37,129 bases of DNA from a virus, in the IMG/VR virus record IMGVR_UViG_3300046653_000045, positions 1-37,129 of that record, one strand, 5' to 3'. Every line of letters starts with the position of its first letter. Position 1 is the first letter of the stretch. Both the position numbers and the translations under genes were made by a program. Of this stretch, positions 5,131 to 37,085 are shown in pieces. Below the pieces are notes generated by a model. The model was not told the DNA's origin, did not search any database, and worked only from the letters and a program-made list of their open reading frames with translations.

Positions 5131-6630
5131 ATGGGCTTTCTGACACAGATTCTAGGGCTAGGTGGCAACCGTATTGCTGACGTGGACGCAAATGCACAGC
5201 TAAAAGTAGGGCTTCCGACCGTTGCTAATGCGATGGGCGTTGCTCTCATTGGTAGCCAGAACGACGACGGGACATATACGGGAAACGTGCAGATGTTTTC
5301 CCCGGAAACAGACGCGGACTATCGCATGCGAGTTTCCGAGGATTGCATGCTCGAAGAGGAGCTATTTAACTACACTTCTCAGAACACGGGGAAACATACA
5401 AGCATTGCGGCGGCAGCCAATCTGGCACCGTCGTGGACAGCTGGAGGATACAACACCAATCCGACGGGGGTGGTTACTGCGTCGAGTGGTGCCACGCTGC
5501 AATCCTACAAGTTCTTCCCTCAGATATCGACGGGAACGCTGTCTCTCGACATGGAAGCGTCGTTTTCTGCGGCACCAACGGCAAACAGCACAATTGATTT
5601 TGGTCTGTTCCTTGGCGGGGCATCCAATCCGTTCGCCCCAACTGATGGCGTCTATTTCCGCCTTGGACCGGGAGGGCTGTACGGGGTGCTCAACTATGGT
5701 GGAGTCGAAACCACCATCGGGCCATTCCCGGCGTCTTTGGGAGCTGGCGTCTGGGGATACGCTCTAAATCAGAAGTATCAATTCATCGTCTACACTACAA
5801 ACAGAAGTGTGGAGTTCTGGATCAACTCGGGAGACCCTGTCGGCGCTGTCTTGGCCGGAATAATCCCCACCCCAGTTGGCCAGGGGTCTAACTTCATGTC
5901 TGCGGCACTGCCTTTTCGGATTAGACACGCAATCGTCGGTGGAGCAGCCGGAGCGGGGCTCAACATGATCTTGTCCAGATACTCCGTCCGAATCGGCGGC
6001 GTAGCCCTTGGTGACACGATGGCCGGGAATGGCTCGCGCCTGCTCGGAGCGTACGAAGGTCTTTCCGGTGGAACGGTTGGCTCGCTCATGGGCGGTACGG
6101 TTTCTTCTGGTTCCATTGCCGCCCCAACGGCAGCGGTTCCGACCAACACAACGAACGCTCTAGGCATCGCCGGGCTCGGCGGGTTGGTCTATGAGACCCC
6201 CACTCTCGCCATCGGTACCGACGGCATTATCATCGCGTATCAGGTTCCAGCGGGATCGACATCGGTTCAGGGACGCAGGATGAAGGTCAACGGTGTCTCG
6301 CTGGCGTCGTTCATCCAAGCAGTACTTACTGGCGGGCCATTGAATATCCGCTACTACCTAGCGTTCGGAGGAACAACCGTTAGCCTCGCAACGGCGGAAT
6401 CCGCAACCGCAAAGGCGGCCAGGCGTGTGAATCTTCCTTTCGTTCAGACCATCACAGCGGCGCAGGCCGTGAGCACGGCGGTTGCGCAAAACGTCTACTC
6501 GGAGAAGTTCGTCAATCCGATTTACGTCAATCCTGGAGAGTGGGTTATGCTAGTCTCGGCCAAAGTCGGCACGGCAATCACAGCGGGAACAATCGCTCAC
6601 CAAATCGGCTTCGATTACTCCTGGGAATAA
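5131..6630 (+). CDS. Tail-appendage/virion structural protein, 499 aa
   Basis: ATG at 5131 behind CCAGGAGA. The N-terminus MGFLTQILGLGGNRIADVDANAQLKV looks like a short virion-attachment segment. The remainder is Gly/Thr/Ser/Ala-rich and beta-predicted. Residues about 110-280 resemble a carbohydrate-binding-type jelly roll (FSAAPTANSTIDFGLFLGG; PTDGVYFRLGPGGLYGVLN; RSVEFWINSGDP), but no catalytic motif was seen and this fold is a guess. The stop abuts a GTG start. Likely a tail-appendage protein by position and composition. Confidence 0.6.
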   Translation: MGFLTQILGLGGNRIADVDANAQLKVGLPTVANAMGVALIGSQNDDGTYTGNVQMFSPETDADYRMRVSEDCMLEEELFNYTSQNTGKHTSIAAAANLAPSWTAGGYNTNPTGVVTASSGATLQSYKFFPQISTGTLSLDMEASFSAAPTANSTIDFGLFLGGASNPFAPTDGVYFRLGPGGLYGVLNYGGVETTIGPFPASLGAGVWGYALNQKYQFIVYTTNRSVEFWINSGDPVGAVLAGIIPTPVGQGSNFMSAALPFRIRHAIVGGAAGAGLNMILSRYSVRIGGVALGDTMAGNGSRLLGAYEGLSGGTVGSLMGGTVSSGSIAAPTAAVPTNTTNALGIAGLGGLVYETPTLAIGTDGIIIAYQVPAGSTSVQGRRMKVNGVSLASFIQAVLTGGPLNIRYYLAFGGTTVSLATAESATAKAARRVNLPFVQTITAAQAVSTAVAQNVYSEKFVNPIYVNPGEWVMLVSAKVGTAITAGTIAHQIGFDYSWE

Positions 6631-8559
6631 GTGCAACCGATAGTTCCGCCAGTCTATCGCACCGGGAATCCTGACCTTGACAGGAATTTCGATGCGATAG
6701 CTGCGGCCTTTCGTCGCCTCAACCTGGGGTCTGGCGACCACCTCGTCATTGTCGACAAGTCGGACACGCCAGACACCGTAGAAAATAAGGTCGTGCAGGG
6801 AACGGGCGTCACCATTGAGAAGACGGGCAAGGCTGGCGACAGGCAATTGACGGTGTCCGCGGACGCGGGCGGCATCGTCAACGAGATCACGAACAACGAA
6901 ACGCTAGTCACGAACATCAGCAACAGCCTGACCACGAACGAGACCTTCGTCACCAACGTCACCAACATCACCGAGGTCAACTCGACGACGCCGACAGCGG
7001 TCGCAACGACGCTCTTTCCCGCGCTGAAGCCAGACCCGCTCAATGATGGATTTTTCGCATGCGTGTTCAAGGGCGGGCACAACAAGGGCGGAAATGACCC
7101 GATGCTGTTCGGGTGGGTTGAGATCTCGCCAGGTGTCATCGAATACCAAACTCTCGGACTGCTCGACAGTGCGTGGCTTGACGGTGTAGACCCAACGCCA
7201 GCCTACGGCAAAGCCTCTTCGCTAATCGGCAAGGCTGTGCTCGCCTACTACCAGGGCGACACGTCCATTCTGGGTGACGAAGAAAAGCTCCAGGGAAAAT
7301 GGATCTTCGATTCGGTTGGCTTCGAGTGGCAGCCAACGTCCGGTCACCCCGGTACGTATAGCGGGGTGACGACCTACCCCCGCATGCACCGAGCGCCAGG
7401 GTTCACGCCCGGCACTTCGCTGCCGGCGGGCGCCACCTTGCAGGCCCAGACAGGCAACTCGTGGGGCACCAAGTTCTTCACGCTCAACACCACCGCGGTC
7501 ATCGGAACTGACCCGCTCTCATTCACCGTCACCGATTCGAAGACGTGGACCGACCGGCATCTTCTCTGCACGTCGCCCGAGCTGACCACCGAGAACGTTA
7601 GCCTGGCTGCGCAGACCGTCGAGGGGACGATAGGGGGATCTGCTTCATCGGATACCACAAACCCGATTGCGAATTCTTTCGTGGCCGCCAGCGCGTTAGG
7701 CATCACGTCGATACCCGCGGAGCCCTTCGAGATCGACATCGCCTCGGTCTACGTCGCCGGCCTCAACTACGATTCGGTTCTGACCGTGGGAGCCCAGCTC
7801 TGGGAGGTGACGCCAGACGGGGTGAGCGAGGTCGGGGCCATGATCGCGGCCGGCGAGTGCACGCCGCTCTCGAACGGAACGACCTCGAGCATCGTTTTTC
7901 ATGCCACGCCGTCGGCTGTCCGGTCTGTCTCTCCCACCAACAAGCTGATGATGCTGTGGACGCTGCACCTAGAGGCCACGTCTGCGCAGGCCACGATCAC
8001 GGTGCGGATTTCCTACGGAGCTCCATGGGGCACGAAAATCACGGTGCCCTGGCAGATGAGCGTCACCGGCGTGGCCACGGGGGCGCACGACCAGCTTGAC
8101 CACAGAAATTTCAAAAATCAGCACCCCAATTGCTCGGTACACCCCGTACTCAGCACAAGCGCTAGCGTCGGTTGGATTTGGCTGGGGAATGGTCCTGCCA
8201 ACGACAGGGGCGTCTCCGACCGAAGCGACTACGTGAAGGTCACCCTCCAGGGGGACACGTACGGGGATGGCGTCTACGGCATCAAGCCAACATGGCAGGA
8301 CGGAACCGAGATTCCCGACGGGTTCCTCGTTGGCGTCTACATCGCCAACGCCACGCCGTCGACCCAGAAAAAGGCTGTGAGCGGAGCTACCCCGCCGACG
8401 GGAAGCGGATTTCTTCCCCTCGCCAACGACGCCCTGCCCAACGGAGCGGGCAAGCAGCACACATTCAATGGACCGACCGAGTTGGTGTACCGACTCGACC
8501 TTACCGAGCAACGCTGGCGCCTTGTCAGCTTCCAAACCTACGCAGTGGTGACCTCATGA
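6631..8559 (+). CDS. Tail-appendage/virion structural protein, 642 aa
   Basis: Starts at GTG 6631 immediately after the upstream TAA, with no spacer, so coupling is likely. The N-terminus (PPVYRTGNPDLDRNFDAIAAAFRRL) is a short helical segment of the kind seen in phage appendage adaptors. A Thr/Asn-rich coil follows (NEITNNETLVTNISNSL near residue 85), then a beta-rich body. The C-terminus ends in a compact beta domain with PTELVYRLDLTEQRWRLVSF. The gene lies directly before the fibre gene, so an adaptor or baseplate-like role for the fibre is a reasonable inference; no enzyme motif seen. Confidence 0.6.
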   Translation: MQPIVPPVYRTGNPDLDRNFDAIAAAFRRLNLGSGDHLVIVDKSDTPDTVENKVVQGTGVTIEKTGKAGDRQLTVSADAGGIVNEITNNETLVTNISNSLTTNETFVTNVTNITEVNSTTPTAVATTLFPALKPDPLNDGFFACVFKGGHNKGGNDPMLFGWVEISPGVIEYQTLGLLDSAWLDGVDPTPAYGKASSLIGKAVLAYYQGDTSILGDEEKLQGKWIFDSVGFEWQPTSGHPGTYSGVTTYPRMHRAPGFTPGTSLPAGATLQAQTGNSWGTKFFTLNTTAVIGTDPLSFTVTDSKTWTDRHLLCTSPELTTENVSLAAQTVEGTIGGSASSDTTNPIANSFVAASALGITSIPAEPFEIDIASVYVAGLNYDSVLTVGAQLWEVTPDGVSEVGAMIAAGECTPLSNGTTSSIVFHATPSAVRSVSPTNKLMMLWTLHLEATSAQATITVRISYGAPWGTKITVPWQMSVTGVATGAHDQLDHRNFKNQHPNCSVHPVLSTSASVGWIWLGNGPANDRGVSDRSDYVKVTLQGDTYGDGVYGIKPTWQDGTEIPDGFLVGVYIANATPSTQKKAVSGATPPTGSGFLPLANDALPNGAGKQHTFNGPTELVYRLDLTEQRWRLVSFQTYAVVTS

Positions 8560-8642
8560 AAAGACCGAACGACATCTACATCGACGCCGGCATGTTCGCT
8601 GCGCTCTGTGTACTCGCACGTGCAATTGGAGGTGCTCCGTGA
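8556..8642 (+). CDS. 28-residue bridging microprotein
   Basis: A 28-codon frame (MKRPNDIYIDAGMFAALCVL and eight more residues) whose ATG overlaps the upstream TGA (ATGA) and whose TGA overlaps the fibre GTG (GTGA). The double overlap, the fit between two coupled genes and the presence of the fibre's GGAGGT site inside it support translation. It has a basic N-terminus and a short hydrophobic centre. It could be a real small protein or only a device to couple translation into the fibre gene. Confidence 0.45.
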   Translation: MKRPNDIYIDAGMFAALCVLARAIGGAP

Positions 8643-11245
8643 ATCGACTTCGTGCAATTGTTCTTGGAATTCTCATCATCGCGACTGCGTGGGCGCCTTC
8701 CGCCTGGACGCAGACCTGCCCCGGTGGCGAGACTGGTAATCTTGCGGACCTGTGCTCGGCAGACGGCAAGATCGACCCAAGCCAGCAGCGGGGTAAAATA
8801 GTCGCGGGTCCTGGGGTCCAAATCACGGCGACGACAGGTACTGGCACAGGAACGGCCACCGTCACCGAAGCGCCATCAACCAGCACCATGACTCTGTCGG
8901 CATCGGCGGCCAGCAACAGCAATACTCTCTACGCCCACGACGGTCTAGGCTTCTACGGCACAACCACGACAACTAGCACAGCTACCAGCTCGACACCGGC
9001 GACGCTGACCAATACGTCGACGGTCACGAACAGCGCCACGGTCACGAACAGTCAGACGCTCACGGGCAGCACGACCAACACAAATAGTCAGACGATCACT
9101 GGAACTAATACTCTCACCGGCACCAACACGGTCACCAACACCAACACGGTCACCAACACCAACACGGTCACCAACACCAACACGGTCACCAACACCAACA
9201 CGGTCACCAACACCAACACGGTCACCAACACCAACACGGTCACTGCTACAAACTTCTACGCTCTTGTGGCAAATCTTGGAGACAATAGCGCTACACCATT
9301 GACGCTTAGCGGATCTACCTGGACACCGGGTACGACAATAAACGTCGGAAATGGACCATATGCTGTCGCAACAGGCTTACAAGGTCTGCGCTGGTTAATT
9401 TCAGACTATAACAACAGCGTGGCATATCCTATTGCGCGAAGTGGAATGAACTGGACTGTTGGCACAGGTTTGGGCATAACAAGTACGGGGTCTCGTTGCG
9501 CGGCAATGGACTCTAGTGAGACATACGCACTAATAACTAACGACGACTCTGTTATGACGACTATACCTTTGTCGTGGAACGGATCCGTATGGGTAGTCGG
9601 GGCAGGGCTGAGCGCGGGATCGGCTGCGTATTGTGTCGCAATGGATGCTAGCGGCGGTGTAGGATTGGTAACGGACTACGCCAATATTTTTCCATTGACC
9701 AGGAGTGGAACAACATGGACCGTAGGAAGCGCTGTAGGCATAACAGGGGCGACACGCTTATGGGGAATAGCGACAGATTCTAGTGGTACGTACGCTCTAA
9801 CAGTAGACAATTCAACTTCACAATTGATAACGCCACTAGTGCGTAGCGGATCTACCTGGACACCAGGTTCGGCAATAACTAACGGGGCGCAGCCGCGAGG
9901 ATTGGCCTCTGATTCCAGTGGTGTGTACTGGCTTGTTGCTAACGCTGGAGGGACCGTGCTTCCGTTCGTGCGTAGCGGATCTACTTGGACGCCTGGTACG
10001 GCGATAAGCGTGGGCGCGTATCCATCTTATGTAGCCACAGACCCTAGCGGCGTGTATTGGCTTGTTACCTTGACGAATGGGACCGTGCTTCCGTTCGTGC
10101 GTAGCGGATCTACTTGGACGCCTGGTACAGCGATAAGCGTGGGCGCGTCTCCGAGAGGCGTGGCGATAGCGGCGCCAACATCTACCGGCACGCAGACATC
10201 TACCGGCACGCAGACCGCTACCGGCACGCAGACCGCTACCGGCACGCAGACCGCTACCGGCACGCAGACCGCTACCGGCACGCAAAGTTCAACCTCGCTC
10301 AATACCTACACACAGAGCTACACGTATTTGCAAACTTCAACCGCTCTCAGCACGTGGACATACCTGCAGACGAGCACAGCACAGCAGACCTCGACTGGAA
10401 CACAGACAAGTACGGGCACGGTTCCAGGCACGCGGACGCTCACGGGAACGACGACCACAACTAACACTGTGACAGTGATGGAAGTCGCAAACAACCCTGA
10501 AATCGTTAACACGCGGACCAGCACAGCGTCGACAACCAGCTACAGTCTGGCTACCTTCAGCGCCGGAATTGCGCAGTCGGTTCGCCAGATGACATCTGGC
10601 GATGTGACCGGGGCGCTTGGCTACACGCCTGGAACCGGAAATGGCAATCTCAACGGAAACGGCGTCAGCTGTTCAGGCAACTACATCAGCCACGCGAACG
10701 GACTCGCGACAGGGTGTTCGACCTATAGCTATCTTTCGGGGAATGGGGTATCTGCGAGCAGACAATTGGTTGATGCCACCAACGGTTTGATCACGGGGGC
10801 ATACACGTTAGTCACGTCGGACATCATAGGAGCCCTCGGCTACGCACCACTGCAAAGCACGTCGGCTGGACTCGTTCCTTCATTTAATTTCACGACGATT
10901 CCAAGCACCGATAGATACAGCACATCGGGATGGGTCCAATTATATATTGCGTCCACGACAGGGACGGCAAATCAATGGGAAACCGTGTACGTGACGGGTT
11001 CCCTGTACCAGACCAACGCCACTGAGCAGCCGTGTTCACTTGGGATATTCCTAGATGGAACACAGATAGGGGCGTCTGGGAGCGCGTCCCAGGTTGTCAA
11101 TCAATACGTTAACGTGTCGACTATGGCTGTTTTCCAAAAATCGTCTACTTCGCGCGGACTAGAGATTAAGATGTATAGCCCGTTGTCGTCGTGCTTGGCC
11201 ATCACCAACTACGTCACGCTAGAAACCAGGACGTATAACCAATGA
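8639..11245 (+). CDS. Tail fibre with predicted seven-bladed propeller and Thr-rich stalks, 868 aa
   Basis: GTG start at 8639 behind GGAGGT. Order of parts: residues 1-25 resemble a secretion signal (MNRLRAIVLGILIIATAWA, ending near WTQTC). A Thr/Ser/Asn-rich stalk with six perfect TNTNTV repeats extends to about residue 201. About residues 206-512 hold seven repeats of 43-46 residues (LV or LI strand, PLxRSGxxWTxG, a Gly turn, xGxAxDxSG), the expected pattern of a seven-bladed beta-propeller. A second stalk of [SA]TGTQT repeats follows. The C-terminal part has two fibre-type motifs, DVTGALGYTP (about 656) and DIIGALGYAP (about 730), and a beta domain. The ALGYxP motif is common in phage tail fibres, which supports receptor-binding. 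A secretion signal on a virion protein is unusual. Confidence 0.8.
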   Translation: MNRLRAIVLGILIIATAWAPSAWTQTCPGGETGNLADLCSADGKIDPSQQRGKIVAGPGVQITATTGTGTGTATVTEAPSTSTMTLSASAASNSNTLYAHDGLGFYGTTTTTSTATSSTPATLTNTSTVTNSATVTNSQTLTGSTTNTNSQTITGTNTLTGTNTVTNTNTVTNTNTVTNTNTVTNTNTVTNTNTVTNTNTVTATNFYALVANLGDNSATPLTLSGSTWTPGTTINVGNGPYAVATGLQGLRWLISDYNNSVAYPIARSGMNWTVGTGLGITSTGSRCAAMDSSETYALITNDDSVMTTIPLSWNGSVWVVGAGLSAGSAAYCVAMDASGGVGLVTDYANIFPLTRSGTTWTVGSAVGITGATRLWGIATDSSGTYALTVDNSTSQLITPLVRSGSTWTPGSAITNGAQPRGLASDSSGVYWLVANAGGTVLPFVRSGSTWTPGTAISVGAYPSYVATDPSGVYWLVTLTNGTVLPFVRSGSTWTPGTAISVGASPRGVAIAAPTSTGTQTSTGTQTATGTQTATGTQTATGTQTATGTQSSTSLNTYTQSYTYLQTSTALSTWTYLQTSTAQQTSTGTQTSTGTVPGTRTLTGTTTTTNTVTVMEVANNPEIVNTRTSTASTTSYSLATFSAGIAQSVRQMTSGDVTGALGYTPGTGNGNLNGNGVSCSGNYISHANGLATGCSTYSYLSGNGVSASRQLVDATNGLITGAYTLVTSDIIGALGYAPLQSTSAGLVPSFNFTTIPSTDRYSTSGWVQLYIASTTGTANQWETVYVTGSLYQTNATEQPCSLGIFLDGTQIGASGSASQVVNQYVNVSTMAVFQKSSTSRGLEIKMYSPLSSCLAITNYVTLETRTYNQ
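9122..9241 (+). repeat. 18-bp tandem repeat encoding TNTNTV
   Basis: Six perfect copies of ACCAACACCAACACGGTC at 9134-9241, preceded by a 12-bp partial copy at 9122-9133. The unit is a multiple of three, so copy-number change lengthens or shortens the first stalk of the fibre without shifting frame. Perfect identity, including wobble bases, indicates recent expansion. Confidence 0.95.
9950..10148 (+). repeat. Duplicated propeller blade DNA
   Basis: Bases 9950-10019 and 10079-10148 are 70-bp copies with one mismatch (G/A), offset 129 bp (43 codons). They encode the C-terminal halves of the sixth and seventh blades. Near-identity at DNA level, against much weaker similarity among the other blades, shows that the last blade arose recently by duplication or was homogenised. 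Confidence 0.9.
10183..10290 (+). repeat. 18-bp tandem repeat encoding [SA]TGTQT
   Basis: Unit TACCGGCACGCAGACCGC: an ATC-ending variant at 10183-10200, four perfect copies at 10201-10272 and a degenerate copy at 10273-10290. It forms the second Thr-rich stalk, after the propeller. Same 18-bp period as the first stalk but unrelated sequence, so the two arrays expanded independently. Confidence 0.95.
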
Positions 11246-16783: not shown

Positions 16784-17892
16784 TTTCCTAGGTCCGTCAC
16801 GAATTTCATTTTTCCGTTGAACATCACCACCGCGTGCGTTCCATCGTCCTTCAGCTGTCCGGGCAACGAATGCATCTCGTGCGCGCGTAGCCACCCGCGC
16901 CCAGAGCAAGCCTTGCACTGGTTCTGCACCTTCTGAATGACCTTGCAGTACAGGCACACGGTCTCGGGCATCAACTGCCGGACGGCTACGGCGGAAGCGT
17001 GCAGGGCAGCCTTTACCGTCGGATAGTCAATCAGGTGGCGGGTGCAGTCGGCCTGCATCCGCTTGAGCTTGTCGTCGAGGTGAGAAAGAAACACATGCTC
17101 GCTGTAGGCGTCGGAGATTACCTCCTTGGGCACGGCCAGGCCGTGGCAGTCGATGCACTCCGTCTCCTCGCTCTCCTCTTCTGCTTCTGGCTTTTTCTTT
17201 GCTCGGTGGACGGCAGACTCGACCGCGCTCGGTGTTTTCCCGGTGAGCTTGGCCACCTTTTTGATGGCGTTCTTCTTGGCGCCGCCGGAGTGGCGTCCGG
17301 GCTTGGGCGATGGCGTAGGGGCCGTTTCCTCGTCGCCACCATCTGTCGGCAAGTCCTCCATGGCGTACGTGCGTGTGACGATTCCGTTCTCGCTTTTTTC
17401 AATCTTTGTCGGAGCTTGGCATCCAGAATATGCGTCGCTCTCCCCATCCCCATCTCCGTCATCATCCTCCTCCTCCTCAACCGTCGGGAAGTCCCCTCCG
17501 TGCTCGGCTACGATGCGCACCAGCTCTGCCAGGCTCGCGTCGCGTTCCGCTGAGTCGTGTCGGCGGTAGACGTTCTCGACGTGGGTCAGAGCCTCCAGCG
17601 CCGCCGGAGAGCCCTTGACCAGCAGCACATCCACCGCTCGCAGGCCTAGGTTGAGGCACGCGGCGATTCTATCGGAGCCAATGACCAGCCTGTTCGTCCT
17701 CCACGCTACCACCGGGGGCTGTGCAGGCTGCCCGCCAGAGGCCGCGAACGACTCGCCCAGGGCAATCACGCGGGGAAGTTTACGGCGGGCCGCTATGTCG
17801 CCGGGGAGGCGCATCTCGGCGATGGGGAATGATTTGAAAAACGCGCGTTCAATGCCGAGTGACGCGACTGTGGACCAGTTGACGATGCTCAT
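16774..17892 (-). CDS. ParB-like N-domain protein with HTH-like helix and zinc motifs, 372 aa
   Basis: Residues about 60-125 resemble the ParB/Srx nuclease-like fold: PPVVAWRTNRLVIGSDRIAA, a Leu/Val strand, then HVENVYRRHDSAERDASLAELV, like the ParB xENxxRxDLsxxE helix. An acidic disordered linker follows (a Glu/Asp run at about 139-153). Next are an HTH-like helix (KKNAIKKVAKLTGKTPSAVE) and two zinc-type sites: CIDC, and CLYC ... CKACSGRG, the last like a DnaJ CxxCxGxG knuckle. Probably DNA-binding; partition, nuclease or transcription roles are all possible. The ATG at 17892 overlaps the upstream stop (ATGA). Confidence 0.6.
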   Translation of the reverse strand: MSIVNWSTVASLGIERAFFKSFPIAEMRLPGDIAARRKLPRVIALGESFAASGGQPAQPPVVAWRTNRLVIGSDRIAACLNLGLRAVDVLLVKGSPAALEALTHVENVYRRHDSAERDASLAELVRIVAEHGGDFPTVEEEEDDDGDGDGESDAYSGCQAPTKIEKSENGIVTRTYAMEDLPTDGGDEETAPTPSPKPGRHSGGAKKNAIKKVAKLTGKTPSAVESAVHRAKKKPEAEEESEETECIDCHGLAVPKEVISDAYSEHVFLSHLDDKLKRMQADCTRHLIDYPTVKAALHASAVAVRQLMPETVCLYCKVIQKVQNQCKACSGRGWLRAHEMHSLPGQLKDDGTHAVVMFNGKMKFVTDLGKCS

Positions 17893-18563
17893 GTTGCGCT
17901 TTCTGTCCACGGAGCGGACGGCTGGAGGGTGAGGAGGTCTGCGATCTGCTGGTCGAGTTCGGCGTTCCTGGCGGCCCTGGCGCCCCTGGCGGCGCCCCAG
18001 GCGGCGCCCCAGGCGGCGCCCCAGGCGGCCCTGGCGGCACTGGCGGCACTGGCGGCGTCCCCGGCGGCCTCGGCGGCGTTCCTGGCGGCGCCCCTGGCGG
18101 CGTCCCTGGCGGCCCAGGCGGCCCAGGCGGCGGCCCTGGCGGCGTCCCAGGCGGCGTCCCTGGCGGCGTCCCTGGCGGCGTCCCAGGCGGCGTCCCCGGC
18201 GGCCCCGGCGGCGGCCCCGGCGGCCCTGGCGGCGGCCTCGGCGGCCCTGGCGGCGGCCTCAATTTGCTCGCAGGTGGCGTCGTCTGGGAGAGCTCGCAGA
18301 GTGGCGGCGTGGTCTAGGATGCCGGATTTTTCGCACGCGTTTGCTGCGTGGACGCGGGCGGCTCGCAGCGCCCACCGGCGCGCCAGCTCCGCTGCTGCTG
18401 GCGCTGCACCGTCGACGCATAGCCACCAGAGCAGCCAGTCCAGGCGTTTTTCTTTCGCGAGCAATTCCCAGCACTGCTGGGCCGTTGTGCAGTTGGCGGC
18501 TACCCACGTTCGACCGGTCTCACACGCGTCGATTTCGATAAAATGTTCGTCAAGTTTTGTCAT
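17889..18563 (-). CDS. Ala-repeat protein, paralog B, 224 aa
   Basis: N-terminal domain of about 100 residues with Trp and Cys (TAQQCWELLAKEKRLDWLLW), then a long Ala-rich array of period about four (AARDAAWDAARDAA), then a short conserved tail (NAELDQQIADLLTLQPSAPW). Similar DWLLW-type domains with AA-rich repeats are common as unknown phage genes. The Ala array would form a helical rod or solenoid. It is a paralog of 20820-21485. It lies between the ATPase gene and the ParB-like gene, coupled to the latter by ATGA. Frames on the other strand read as Gly/Pro collagen-like sequence and are shadows. Confidence 0.75.
   Translation of the reverse strand: MTKLDEHFIEIDACETGRTWVAANCTTAQQCWELLAKEKRLDWLLWWLCVDGAAPAAAELARRWALRAARVHAANACEKSGILDHAATLRALPDDATCEQIEAAARAAEAAARAAGAAAGAAGDAAWDAARDAARDAAWDAARAAAWAAWAARDAARGAARNAAEAAGDAASAASAARAAWGAAWGAAWGAARGARAARNAELDQQIADLLTLQPSAPWTESAT
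17978..18218. repeat. GC-rich short-period repeat of Ala-repeat gene B
   Basis: About 240 bp built from GGCGGC-containing 9- and 12-bp units, encoding the AAxDAAx array. It is longer and differently ordered than the equivalent 20969-21140 in paralog A, while flanking DNA is identical, so length change occurs inside the array. Confidence 0.8.
18219..18462. repeat. 244-bp exact repeat (second copy at 21141-21384)
   Basis: Bases 18219-18462 equal 21141-21384 with no mismatch seen, including wobble positions. They encode the central and N-terminal region of both Ala-repeat paralogs. A second identical block, 80 bp, covers the 3' ends of the genes (17898-17977 and 20889-20968). Outside these blocks the copies differ. 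This pattern indicates recent duplication or ongoing gene conversion. Confidence 0.9.
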
Positions 18564-20786: not shown

Positions 20787-20920
20787 GCTTTCTGTCCACG
20801 GAGCGGACGGCTGGAGGGGTTAGGTTTGGCGGCTACGGGCGAGGGTATCGTCGGATTGGGATTGTGTTGGTCCGGTCATAATAAGCATGCTTTCTGTCCA
20901 CGGAGCGGACGGCTGGAGGG
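20749..20920. repeat. 70-bp direct repeat across the 5' end of the annealing gene
   Basis: Bases 20749-20818 equal 20851-20920 (offset 102 bp). Copy 1 holds the functional start of the ERF gene. Copy 2 holds the same start codons fused in frame to the end of Ala-repeat gene A (TESMLIMTGPTQSQSDD), so gene A is now extended through a dead copy of the ERF start. The 32 bp between copies match 21847-21878. This is a recombination scar from tandem duplication. Confidence 0.9.
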
Positions 20921-21485
20921 TGAGGAGGTCTGCGATCTGCTGGTCGAGTTCGGCGTTCCTGGCGGCCCCGGAGGCCCTGGCGGCGGCCCCGGCGGCGCCC
21001 CTGGCGGCCCTGGCGGCCCTGGCGGTGGCCCCGGAGGCCCTGGCGGCGGCCCAGGCGGCGTCCCAGGCGGCGTCCCTGGCGGCCCAGGCGGCCCTGGCGG
21101 CGGCCTCGGCGGCGTCCCAGGCGGCGTTCCTGGCGGCCCAGGCGGCCCTGGCGGCGGCCTCGGCGGCCCTGGCGGCGGCCTCAATTTGCTCGCAGGTGGC
21201 GTCGTCTGGGAGAGCTCGCAGAGTGGCGGCGTGGTCTAGGATGCCGGATTTTTCGCACGCGTTTGCTGCGTGGACGCGGGCGGCTCGCAGCGCCCACCGG
21301 CGCGCCAGCTCCGCTGCTGCTGGCGCTGCACCGTCGACGCATAGCCACCAGAGCAGCCAGTCCAGGCGTTTTTCTTTCGCGAGCGATCCCCAGCACTGCT
21401 GGGCCGTCGTACAGTTGGCGGCTACCCACGCTAGCCCGGTCTCACACGCGTCGATTTTGATAAAATGTTCGTCGAGTTTTGTCAT
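20820..21485 (-). CDS. Ala-repeat protein, paralog A, 221 aa
   Basis: Same design as 17889-18563: an N-terminal Trp/Cys domain, an Ala-rich array (AARNAAWDAAEAAARAA), then NAELDQQIADLLTLQPSAPW. The C-terminus is extended by an inactive copy of the ERF start (MLIMTGPTQSQS) and the tail DDTLARSRQT, which is shared with the frame at 21847-21951. ATG 21485 follows AAGGA. The N-terminus differs from paralog B at a few residues (FIKID against FIEID; GLAW against GRTW; CWGS against CWEL), then is identical. First of the recombination genes in the leftward operon. Function unknown. Confidence 0.75.
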   Translation of the reverse strand: MTKLDEHFIKIDACETGLAWVAANCTTAQQCWGSLAKEKRLDWLLWWLCVDGAAPAAAELARRWALRAARVHAANACEKSGILDHAATLRALPDDATCEQIEAAARAAEAAARAAWAARNAAWDAAEAAARAAWAARDAAWDAAWAAARASGATARAARAARGAAGAAARASGAARNAELDQQIADLLTLQPSAPWTESMLIMTGPTQSQSDDTLARSRQT

Positions 21486-35949: not shown

Positions 35950-37085
35950 TGTCTTGGTACAGTGGAATCACCGACGCCGTGTCAGGCGGGCTTGGATCTA
36001 TAACTGGCGCGCTCGGCAGTGTCACGGGCACAGAAAACCCGCTGAACACAACTGTCGGGCAAAACTATCTCAACGACAAAGGGAACAAGGACGCGAACGG
36101 AAACAATCGCCAAGACCTCACCTATGGCGGAGTGGCAGATCTGGCAACGCAAAAACTCGGGACAGACTACACAGCCCCAACCGCTACCCTCGACAACGCA
36201 CAGCAGAGCACGGTAACCAACGCCAATGCCGCCACCGTGGCACCGACGACCAACGCCACTACCACCAACGCCCAGGCGGCGACGATGAACTCAGCCGCCC
36301 TCAACACCGCGCAATCCGATCAGACTAGGAACTCCCAGCAGCAACTCGCCTCCAGCCTCCAGCAGACGGCGAACGGACAAGGGAACTCCGCTGCACAAGA
36401 GCAGCTCAGGCAAACCACAGCCCAGAACGTCAACAATCAAACCTCAGCCGCCCAGGGCGTGCACGGCGCATCCCGCTTGGCCGCTCTTCGAAACGCTGGG
36501 GTTGCAGGAGCATCGACACAACAGACGGCGAACTCTCAGGCAGCAGGATTGCGCGCCACCGAGACGACCAACGCTCAGAACACTTTAGCTAGCACCCTTG
36601 GAAACACGCGTTCGCAAGATCAGTCCCAGGCAACCACGCAAGCCAACCTACAGCAGACAGCCAACTCCACCAACGCCGCCAACCAGCAGCAAGTGAACAC
36701 GGCCAATGCGAACGCTGCAAACACGGCATCGATCACCAATGCTGGTTCCGCCAACACGGCCGACCTACAAAACGCCGCCAACCAGCAGCAAGTGAACACG
36801 GCCAATGCGAACGCTGCAAACACGAGCTCCACTAACCAGGCCACGCAGCAAAACAATCAGAATCTTACGCTCGCGCAATCTAACCAGAATGCACAATTGC
36901 AGACCAATTCCCTAAATACAAACAGGGCACAGTCGCTCGTAGGCGACACGCAAAATGCCGTCAACGGCATATCTACCATCGACCAGAACGCCCTGACCGC
37001 ACAGACGAACTATGAGAAGGTCAAGAGCGGGGCGCTCACCGGGGCGCTCAATGCAGGCGGAAGCCTGTTGATTGGAGGCATCTAA
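35949..37085 (+). CDS. Gln/Asn/Ala/Thr-rich ejection-type protein, 378 aa
   Basis: TAATG overlap with the nozzle-like gene. The first 25 residues are Gly/Ser-rich and weakly hydrophobic (SWYSGITDAVSGGLGSITGA). The rest is unusually rich in Asn, Gln, Thr and Ala with few charges, predicted to be a long helix or coiled coil with repeats. A 54-bp exact repeat encodes NAANQQQVNTANANAANT twice, 33 residues apart. Short Gly/hydrophobic ends and polar helical centres suit ejected internal proteins. First of three such genes on the circle. Last part duplicated at 3-251 as a strain variant. Confidence 0.7.
   Translation: MSWYSGITDAVSGGLGSITGALGSVTGTENPLNTTVGQNYLNDKGNKDANGNNRQDLTYGGVADLATQKLGTDYTAPTATLDNAQQSTVTNANAATVAPTTNATTTNAQAATMNSAALNTAQSDQTRNSQQQLASSLQQTANGQGNSAAQEQLRQTTAQNVNNQTSAAQGVHGASRLAALRNAGVAGASTQQTANSQAAGLRATETTNAQNTLASTLGNTRSQDQSQATTQANLQQTANSTNAANQQQVNTANANAANTASITNAGSANTADLQNAANQQQVNTANANAANTSSTNQATQQNNQNLTLAQSNQNAQLQTNSLNTNRAQSLVGDTQNAVNGISTIDQNALTAQTNYEKVKSGALTGALNAGGSLLIGGI
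36672..36824 (+). repeat. 54-bp direct repeat in ejection-type gene
   Basis: Bases 36672-36725 equal 36771-36824, offset 99 bp (33 codons). Both encode NAANQQQVNTANANAANT. Exact identity including wobble positions suggests recent duplication within a helical repeat region. Confidence 0.9.
36862..36988. repeat. 127-bp exact terminal repeat, copy 2
   Basis: Identical to bases 1-127. Here the match ends 141 bp before the window end, and the sequence continues as the alternative version of the gene junction. Confidence 0.9.

Follow-up and report, generated by a model that had tools for sequence, protein, structure and literature searches.

A predicted seven-bladed beta-propeller set between threonine-rich repeat stalks in a fibre-like phage protein

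Among the closest described counterparts of the protein reported here is the receptor-binding protein (RBP) Gp45 of Staphylococcus phage phi11, which consists of a stem, a five-bladed propeller platform proposed as the binding site, and a tower (PMC4901313). Other phage propeller proteins listed by the same source are PRD1 P2, the trimeric endosialidases and the seven-bladed PhiKZ gp131 (PDB 4GBF), a tail/baseplate protein for which receptor binding is suspected (PMC4901313). The nozzle proteins of SU10 likewise carry a seven-bladed propeller, but are part of the tail tube (PMC9509320). We found no literature linking YVTN propellers with phage tails. Among isolate phages, a search with the YVTN consensus found gp42 of Roseobacter phage CRP-9 (QSL99457.1, L027 5346-9071, annotated as hypothetical), a protein of 1241 aa with three blocks of five propeller-like repeats, which we interpret from its sequence as a probable multi-propeller tail protein.

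The present protein resembles phi11 Gp45 in the order of stem, propeller and C-terminal tower within one fibre-like chain, with the propeller in mid-protein (PMC4901313), but phi11 Gp45 has five blades and a helical stem, belongs to a Gram-positive siphophage and is without Thr-rich repeat stalks, whereas seven blades and a weakly jelly-roll-like C-terminus are predicted here. PhiKZ gp131 shares the blade number and is likened to the phage fibre by description, although its propeller is terminal and its phage a myophage. Like the phage fibre, CRP-9 gp42 is a long tail-region protein with internal propeller-like blocks and an ALGY motif near its C-terminus, but its repeats are of the SMP-30/Vgb-like type, no Thr-rich tandem arrays were noticed, and its N-terminus is without a signal-like segment. 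In an unrelated IMG/VR contig (L026), a fibre gene is immediately followed by a Lactonase/YVTN propeller gene (5881-6867), and an amidase lies downstream within the same 12 kb. The GC3 of this propeller gene, 0.42 against 0.65 for the L026 fibre gene, is low as in the phage propeller, but the gene encodes a separate 328-aa protein and not a domain within the fibre. These are two cases of a low-GC3 propeller beside or within a fibre, not a rule. Two further proteins (L022 3442-5379 and L023 4897-6897) join a collagen-like Gly-X-Y stalk to a YVTN propeller at the C-terminus, and are probably of host exosporium type. The initial annotation called a mid-fibre propeller an unusual receptor-binding architecture; it is rarer than ordinary fibres, but with phi11 RBP and CRP-9 gp42 as precedents it varies an arrangement that a few phages were already known to have, and a role in receptor binding is suggested by analogy.

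The window, i.e. the whole stretch of DNA analysed, is one viral record of 37,129 bases, of which the first 169 recur at 36862-37031 with 97% identity. A relative (L018) reads across this terminal repeat with one copy, and the last ~100 window bases differ from the L018 continuation. Because of the near-identical ends and the single copy in L018, we take the window to be a circularly permuted, near-complete genome. Its recognisable or likely products include a terminase, an SU10-like portal, a major head protein and a very large tail protein; the isolate phage collection contained no close relative. Several fibre-like genes stand in a row, the fibre gene being the last of them, and beyond it come genes for a small membrane protein, a RusA-like resolvase and an endolysin. 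Elsewhere in the window, two near-identical genes on the minus strand (17889-18563 and 20820-21485), with a common N-terminal half and Ala-rich AARDAAW-type repeats, flank SbcC-like and Erf-like annealing genes.

The fibre gene is a single real open reading frame at the annotated positions, with a GTG start and a well-placed GGAGG. The encoded protein is a long fibre-like chain with a predicted ring-shaped propeller between two threonine-rich repeat stalks and, by analogy, it is probably a host-binding device. A 28-aa ORF (MKRPNDIYIDAGMFAALCVLARAIGGAP) at window positions 8556-8641 ends in a stop codon that shares bases with the GTG of the fibre gene, an arrangement that could permit translational coupling. 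The features of the locus are as follows.

8628-8632, plus strand: Shine-Dalgarno-like GGAGG, 6 nt 5' of the GTG start (sequence)
8639-11245, plus strand: fibre-like ORF, 868 aa, GTG start (ORF list and translation)
8639-8716, plus strand: Sec-signal- or TM-like N-terminus, residues 1-26, MNRLRAIVLGILIIATAWAPSAWTQT (Kyte-Doolittle)
8987-9253, plus strand: stalk 1, Thr/Asn-rich, residues 117-205, 45% Thr and 22% Asn (composition)
9121-9243, plus strand: array 1, 18 bp x 6.8 copies, 100% match, encoding TNTNTV (tandem-repeat search)
9254-10177, plus strand: predicted seven-blade propeller block, residues 206-513 (repeat profile, AF2 model, Foldseek)
9254-9385, plus strand: blade 1, residues 206-249
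9386-9520, plus strand: blade 2, residues 250-294
9521-9655, plus strand: blade 3, residues 295-339
9656-9787, plus strand: blade 4, residues 340-383
9788-9922, plus strand: blade 5, residues 384-428
9923-10051, plus strand: blade 6, residues 429-471
9950-10023, plus strand: blade 6 stretch, 74 nt, 97% identical to 10079-10152 (DNA comparison)
10052-10177, plus strand: blade 7, residues 472-513
10079-10152, plus strand: blade 7 stretch, 74 nt, matching 9950-10023 (DNA comparison)
10178-10543, plus strand: stalk 2, Thr-rich, residues 514-635, 40% Thr (composition)
10182-10284, plus strand: array 2, 18 bp x 5.7 copies, 97% match, encoding TGTQT[SA] (tandem-repeat search)
10613-10630, plus strand: ALGYTP motif, residue 659 (sequence)
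10832-10849, plus strand: ALGYAP motif, residue 732 (sequence)
10943-11242, plus strand: putative C-terminal beta-sandwich, about residues 769-868, with a weak C1q/TNF-like jelly-roll resemblance (low-confidence model)

The protein contains exactly seven repeats. When any one is left out, a profile built from the remaining six recovers it in register (E 1.7e-10 to 1.7e-18). The mean pairwise BLOSUM62 score of the repeats is 68 compared with -12.5 +/- 2.2 for shuffled repeats. The columns L, P, G, W, G and A are invariant. The number of repeats thus agrees with the initial annotation, as does the motif SGxxWTxG, present with close variants in all seven, but the second motif it proposed, AxDxSG, is intact in part of the repeats only, and the repeat length is 42-45 aa rather than 43-46. 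Blades 6 and 7 are 86% identical at the DNA level, including the 74-nt stretch, against 57-70% for other blade pairs. This suggests that one of the two was recently duplicated, or that gene conversion took place between them, a process by which propellers are known to evolve (PMC9218822). ORFs on the antisense strand of the block were dismissed as by-products of the repeats.

AlphaFold2 was run on the single sequence of residues 202-515 with no alignment. The best model (pLDDT 61.9, pTM 0.60) is all beta, and the remaining four of the five models scored lower (pLDDT 31-49). Foldseek matched the best model over its full length to PDB entries for seven-bladed propellers of the 6-phosphogluconolactonase type, namely 6nau (TM 0.84/0.79, rmsd 3.3), 1ri6 (TM 0.82/0.77) and 3u4y_A (TM 0.82/0.80), whereas designed six-bladed Pizza proteins matched part of its length; a search of viral models returned 185 matches at E <= 0.001. 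The block starts with the second strand of a blade (FYALVAN) and ends with the first (SPRGVAIA), so that velcro closure fits. Structure prediction, which had been proposed as a check on the propeller, returned a closed seven-bladed ring and no solenoid (pLDDT 62), and supports residues 206-513 as a closed seven-bladed beta-propeller. Confidence in this fold is moderate because no alignment was used and the best model is far above the other four.

The sequence family of the block was searched with the HMM consensus of the seven repeats in tandem, a query unbiased towards YVTN. Against plasmid proteins it matched 43 records (the best at E 4e-20 and covering 98% of the query), those listed being mostly named YncE, lactonase-fold or similar, and the reversed consensus used as control gave no matches. 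The natural sequence reached 10.0 bits against TIGR02276 (cut-off 27.85), PF10282 was not among its listed matches, and plasmid proteins yielded no significant match to it. Searched against solved structures, the protein sequence gave no match and a profile only weak ones (E no better than 0.4); these were exclusively designed Pizza propellers and were given no weight as evidence. The anticipated profile match to propeller families therefore holds for the consensus, which reaches YncE/lactonase, but not for the natural sequence, which reaches no curated family. Because of the consensus E-value and the empty reversed control, we regard the propeller as homologous to YVTN/YncE/lactonase at superfamily level, judging from sequence, and by cut-off outside the named repeat family. 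The propellers of that superfamily (Streptomyces WP_329166936.1; PDB 1ri6, 6nau and 3u4y) also have seven blades of ~42 aa in a common strand order, but with the turn DTATNT in place of RSGSTW and, unlike the phage propeller, they do not lie inside a fibre. No relatives of the whole protein, the propeller or the consensus were found in IMG/VR, and no homologous virion protein matched in phages or IMG/VR. Fifteen IMG/VR matches to RSGSTWTPG were chance by the repeat profile, and the sole genome-scan match (L017) was low-complexity and failed that profile. The YVTN-type consensus matches just 2 of 50,697 phage records by sequence compared with many more fold-search candidates in viral proteins, hence phage propellers are probably under-annotated.

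GC3 of the propeller (308 codons) is 0.47, whereas 312 windows of the same length in other phage genes have a mean of 0.70 and a minimum of 0.57. Corrected for amino acid content, the propeller has a z of -9.2, whereas none of 311 control windows falls below -5.1. The deviation has the same direction in each of the seven blades, and stalks 1 (+2.6) and 2 (-1.2) are without such a shift. This departure from the codon usage of the rest of the phage suggests that the propeller is a captured module with foreign codon usage, the simplest reading being a relatively recent import between the stalks. No donor of the module was found. The bracketing of the repeat block by two 18-bp arrays was verified, array 1 being perfect and array 2 near-perfect, and the stalks may be expandable, as had been proposed. 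No relatives carrying the fibre gene were found for a comparison of array copy number: three phage relatives found via the 32401-35949 gene (L018, L019 and L020) all stop short of it, and an anchor scan with the lysis genes gave no match to further ones.

Both ALGYxP motifs described in the initial annotation are present after the propeller. The model of the C-terminus is of low confidence (pLDDT 52). Among solved folds it comes nearest to C1q/TNF-like trimeric heads and sugar-binding domains for the most part (TM 0.3-0.5), the resemblance to such heads and to BclA having a TMt of about 0.4-0.5, which would weakly suit a trimeric tip. The protein matched no known fibre family, and its PHROG matches were to two families of unknown function only, both on the Thr-rich stretch. 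It is nevertheless an elongated chain with ALGYxP motifs in a tail-gene region, as expected of a tail fibre, and a fibre-like setting is supported by these motifs, the jelly-roll-like C-terminus and the neighbouring fibre-type genes. We consider it probable that the phage is short-tailed and that the protein is its trimeric adhesin of tail-fibre type. Each chain would run from an N-terminal region through a stalk, a propeller derived from the YVTN/YncE/lactonase superfamily and a second stalk to two ALGYxP modules and, at the tip, a jelly roll. By analogy with phi11 RBP, such a virion fibre could present a ligand-binding face of the propeller in mid-fibre, the ligand probably being a glycan or a protein on a surface, while its C-terminal head would trimerise and might also contact another site. 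Spacing would be set by the stalks, possibly tuned through their length, and the propeller would have been captured as a module whose blades are still duplicating or converting, as blades 6 and 7 suggest.

Three other readings differ from this one in fold, function or location. An open beta-solenoid or a set of separate small domains, with no closed ring, could be accommodated by a single-sequence model of only moderate confidence and by the low scores of the other four models, but is very improbable in view of exactly seven repeats, termini suited to velcro closure, TM 0.8 over full length with seven-bladed enzymes, and the YncE/lactonase homology with its clean control. If the ring is accepted, the propeller of a virion fibre could still bind no ligand and serve as a structural spacer or steric platform, leaving host recognition to the C-terminal head alone. 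A purely structural role is conceivable for the most conserved propeller residues (P, G, W), and in many fibres the distal tip carries specificity; repeated propellers of the YVTN or lectin type are, however, mostly binders. The propeller platform of phi11 RBP is moreover itself the proposed binding site (PMC4901313), and we hold the spacer function to be improbable.

What speaks most against a simple virion fibre is the signal-like N-terminus, because tailed-phage fibres are normally assembled in the cytoplasm. Its maximum 12-residue Kyte-Doolittle mean is 2.84 compared with at most 1.9 in the other structural proteins tested, and from its sequence it may comprise a basic n-region, a hydrophobic h-region and possible cleavage sites A-T-A/P-S-A, resembling only the adjacent lysis-type membrane proteins. 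The host Sec system might thus export the protein during infection as a non-virion adhesin or decoy, periplasmic, surface-attached or released, that would shield or modify the host surface (superinfection exclusion, receptor masking) or aid the spread of progeny after lysis. An A-x-A-like site in a strongly hydrophobic N-terminus after a good Shine-Dalgarno sequence, a gene for a small membrane protein that starts at 11242 and overlaps the fibre stop codon, and the YncE/lactonase relatives found, often signal-bearing exoproteins such as the Streptomyces YncE protein, all favour export. The ALGYxP motifs and layout are nevertheless of tail-fibre type, the gene adjoins fibre-like genes, and metagenomic phage fibres with signal-like N-termini exist; export outside the virion is therefore possible but rather unlikely. 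A bolder proposal, which we find doubtful as a whole, is that the phage recently acquired a YVTN-type propeller from a bacterial exoprotein and placed it between the slippage-prone stalks of a Sec-signal-bearing adhesin, the arrays serving as hinges for module exchange and length tuning, and that the adhesin may act from the surface of the infected cell besides or instead of the virion.

Propellers are versatile binding scaffolds, yet they have been recognised in few phage adhesins. A compositionally foreign propeller between tandem-repeat stalks would be a clean case of a phage grafting a bacterial binding domain into a fibre, and the propeller is a testable unit that can be expressed alone.
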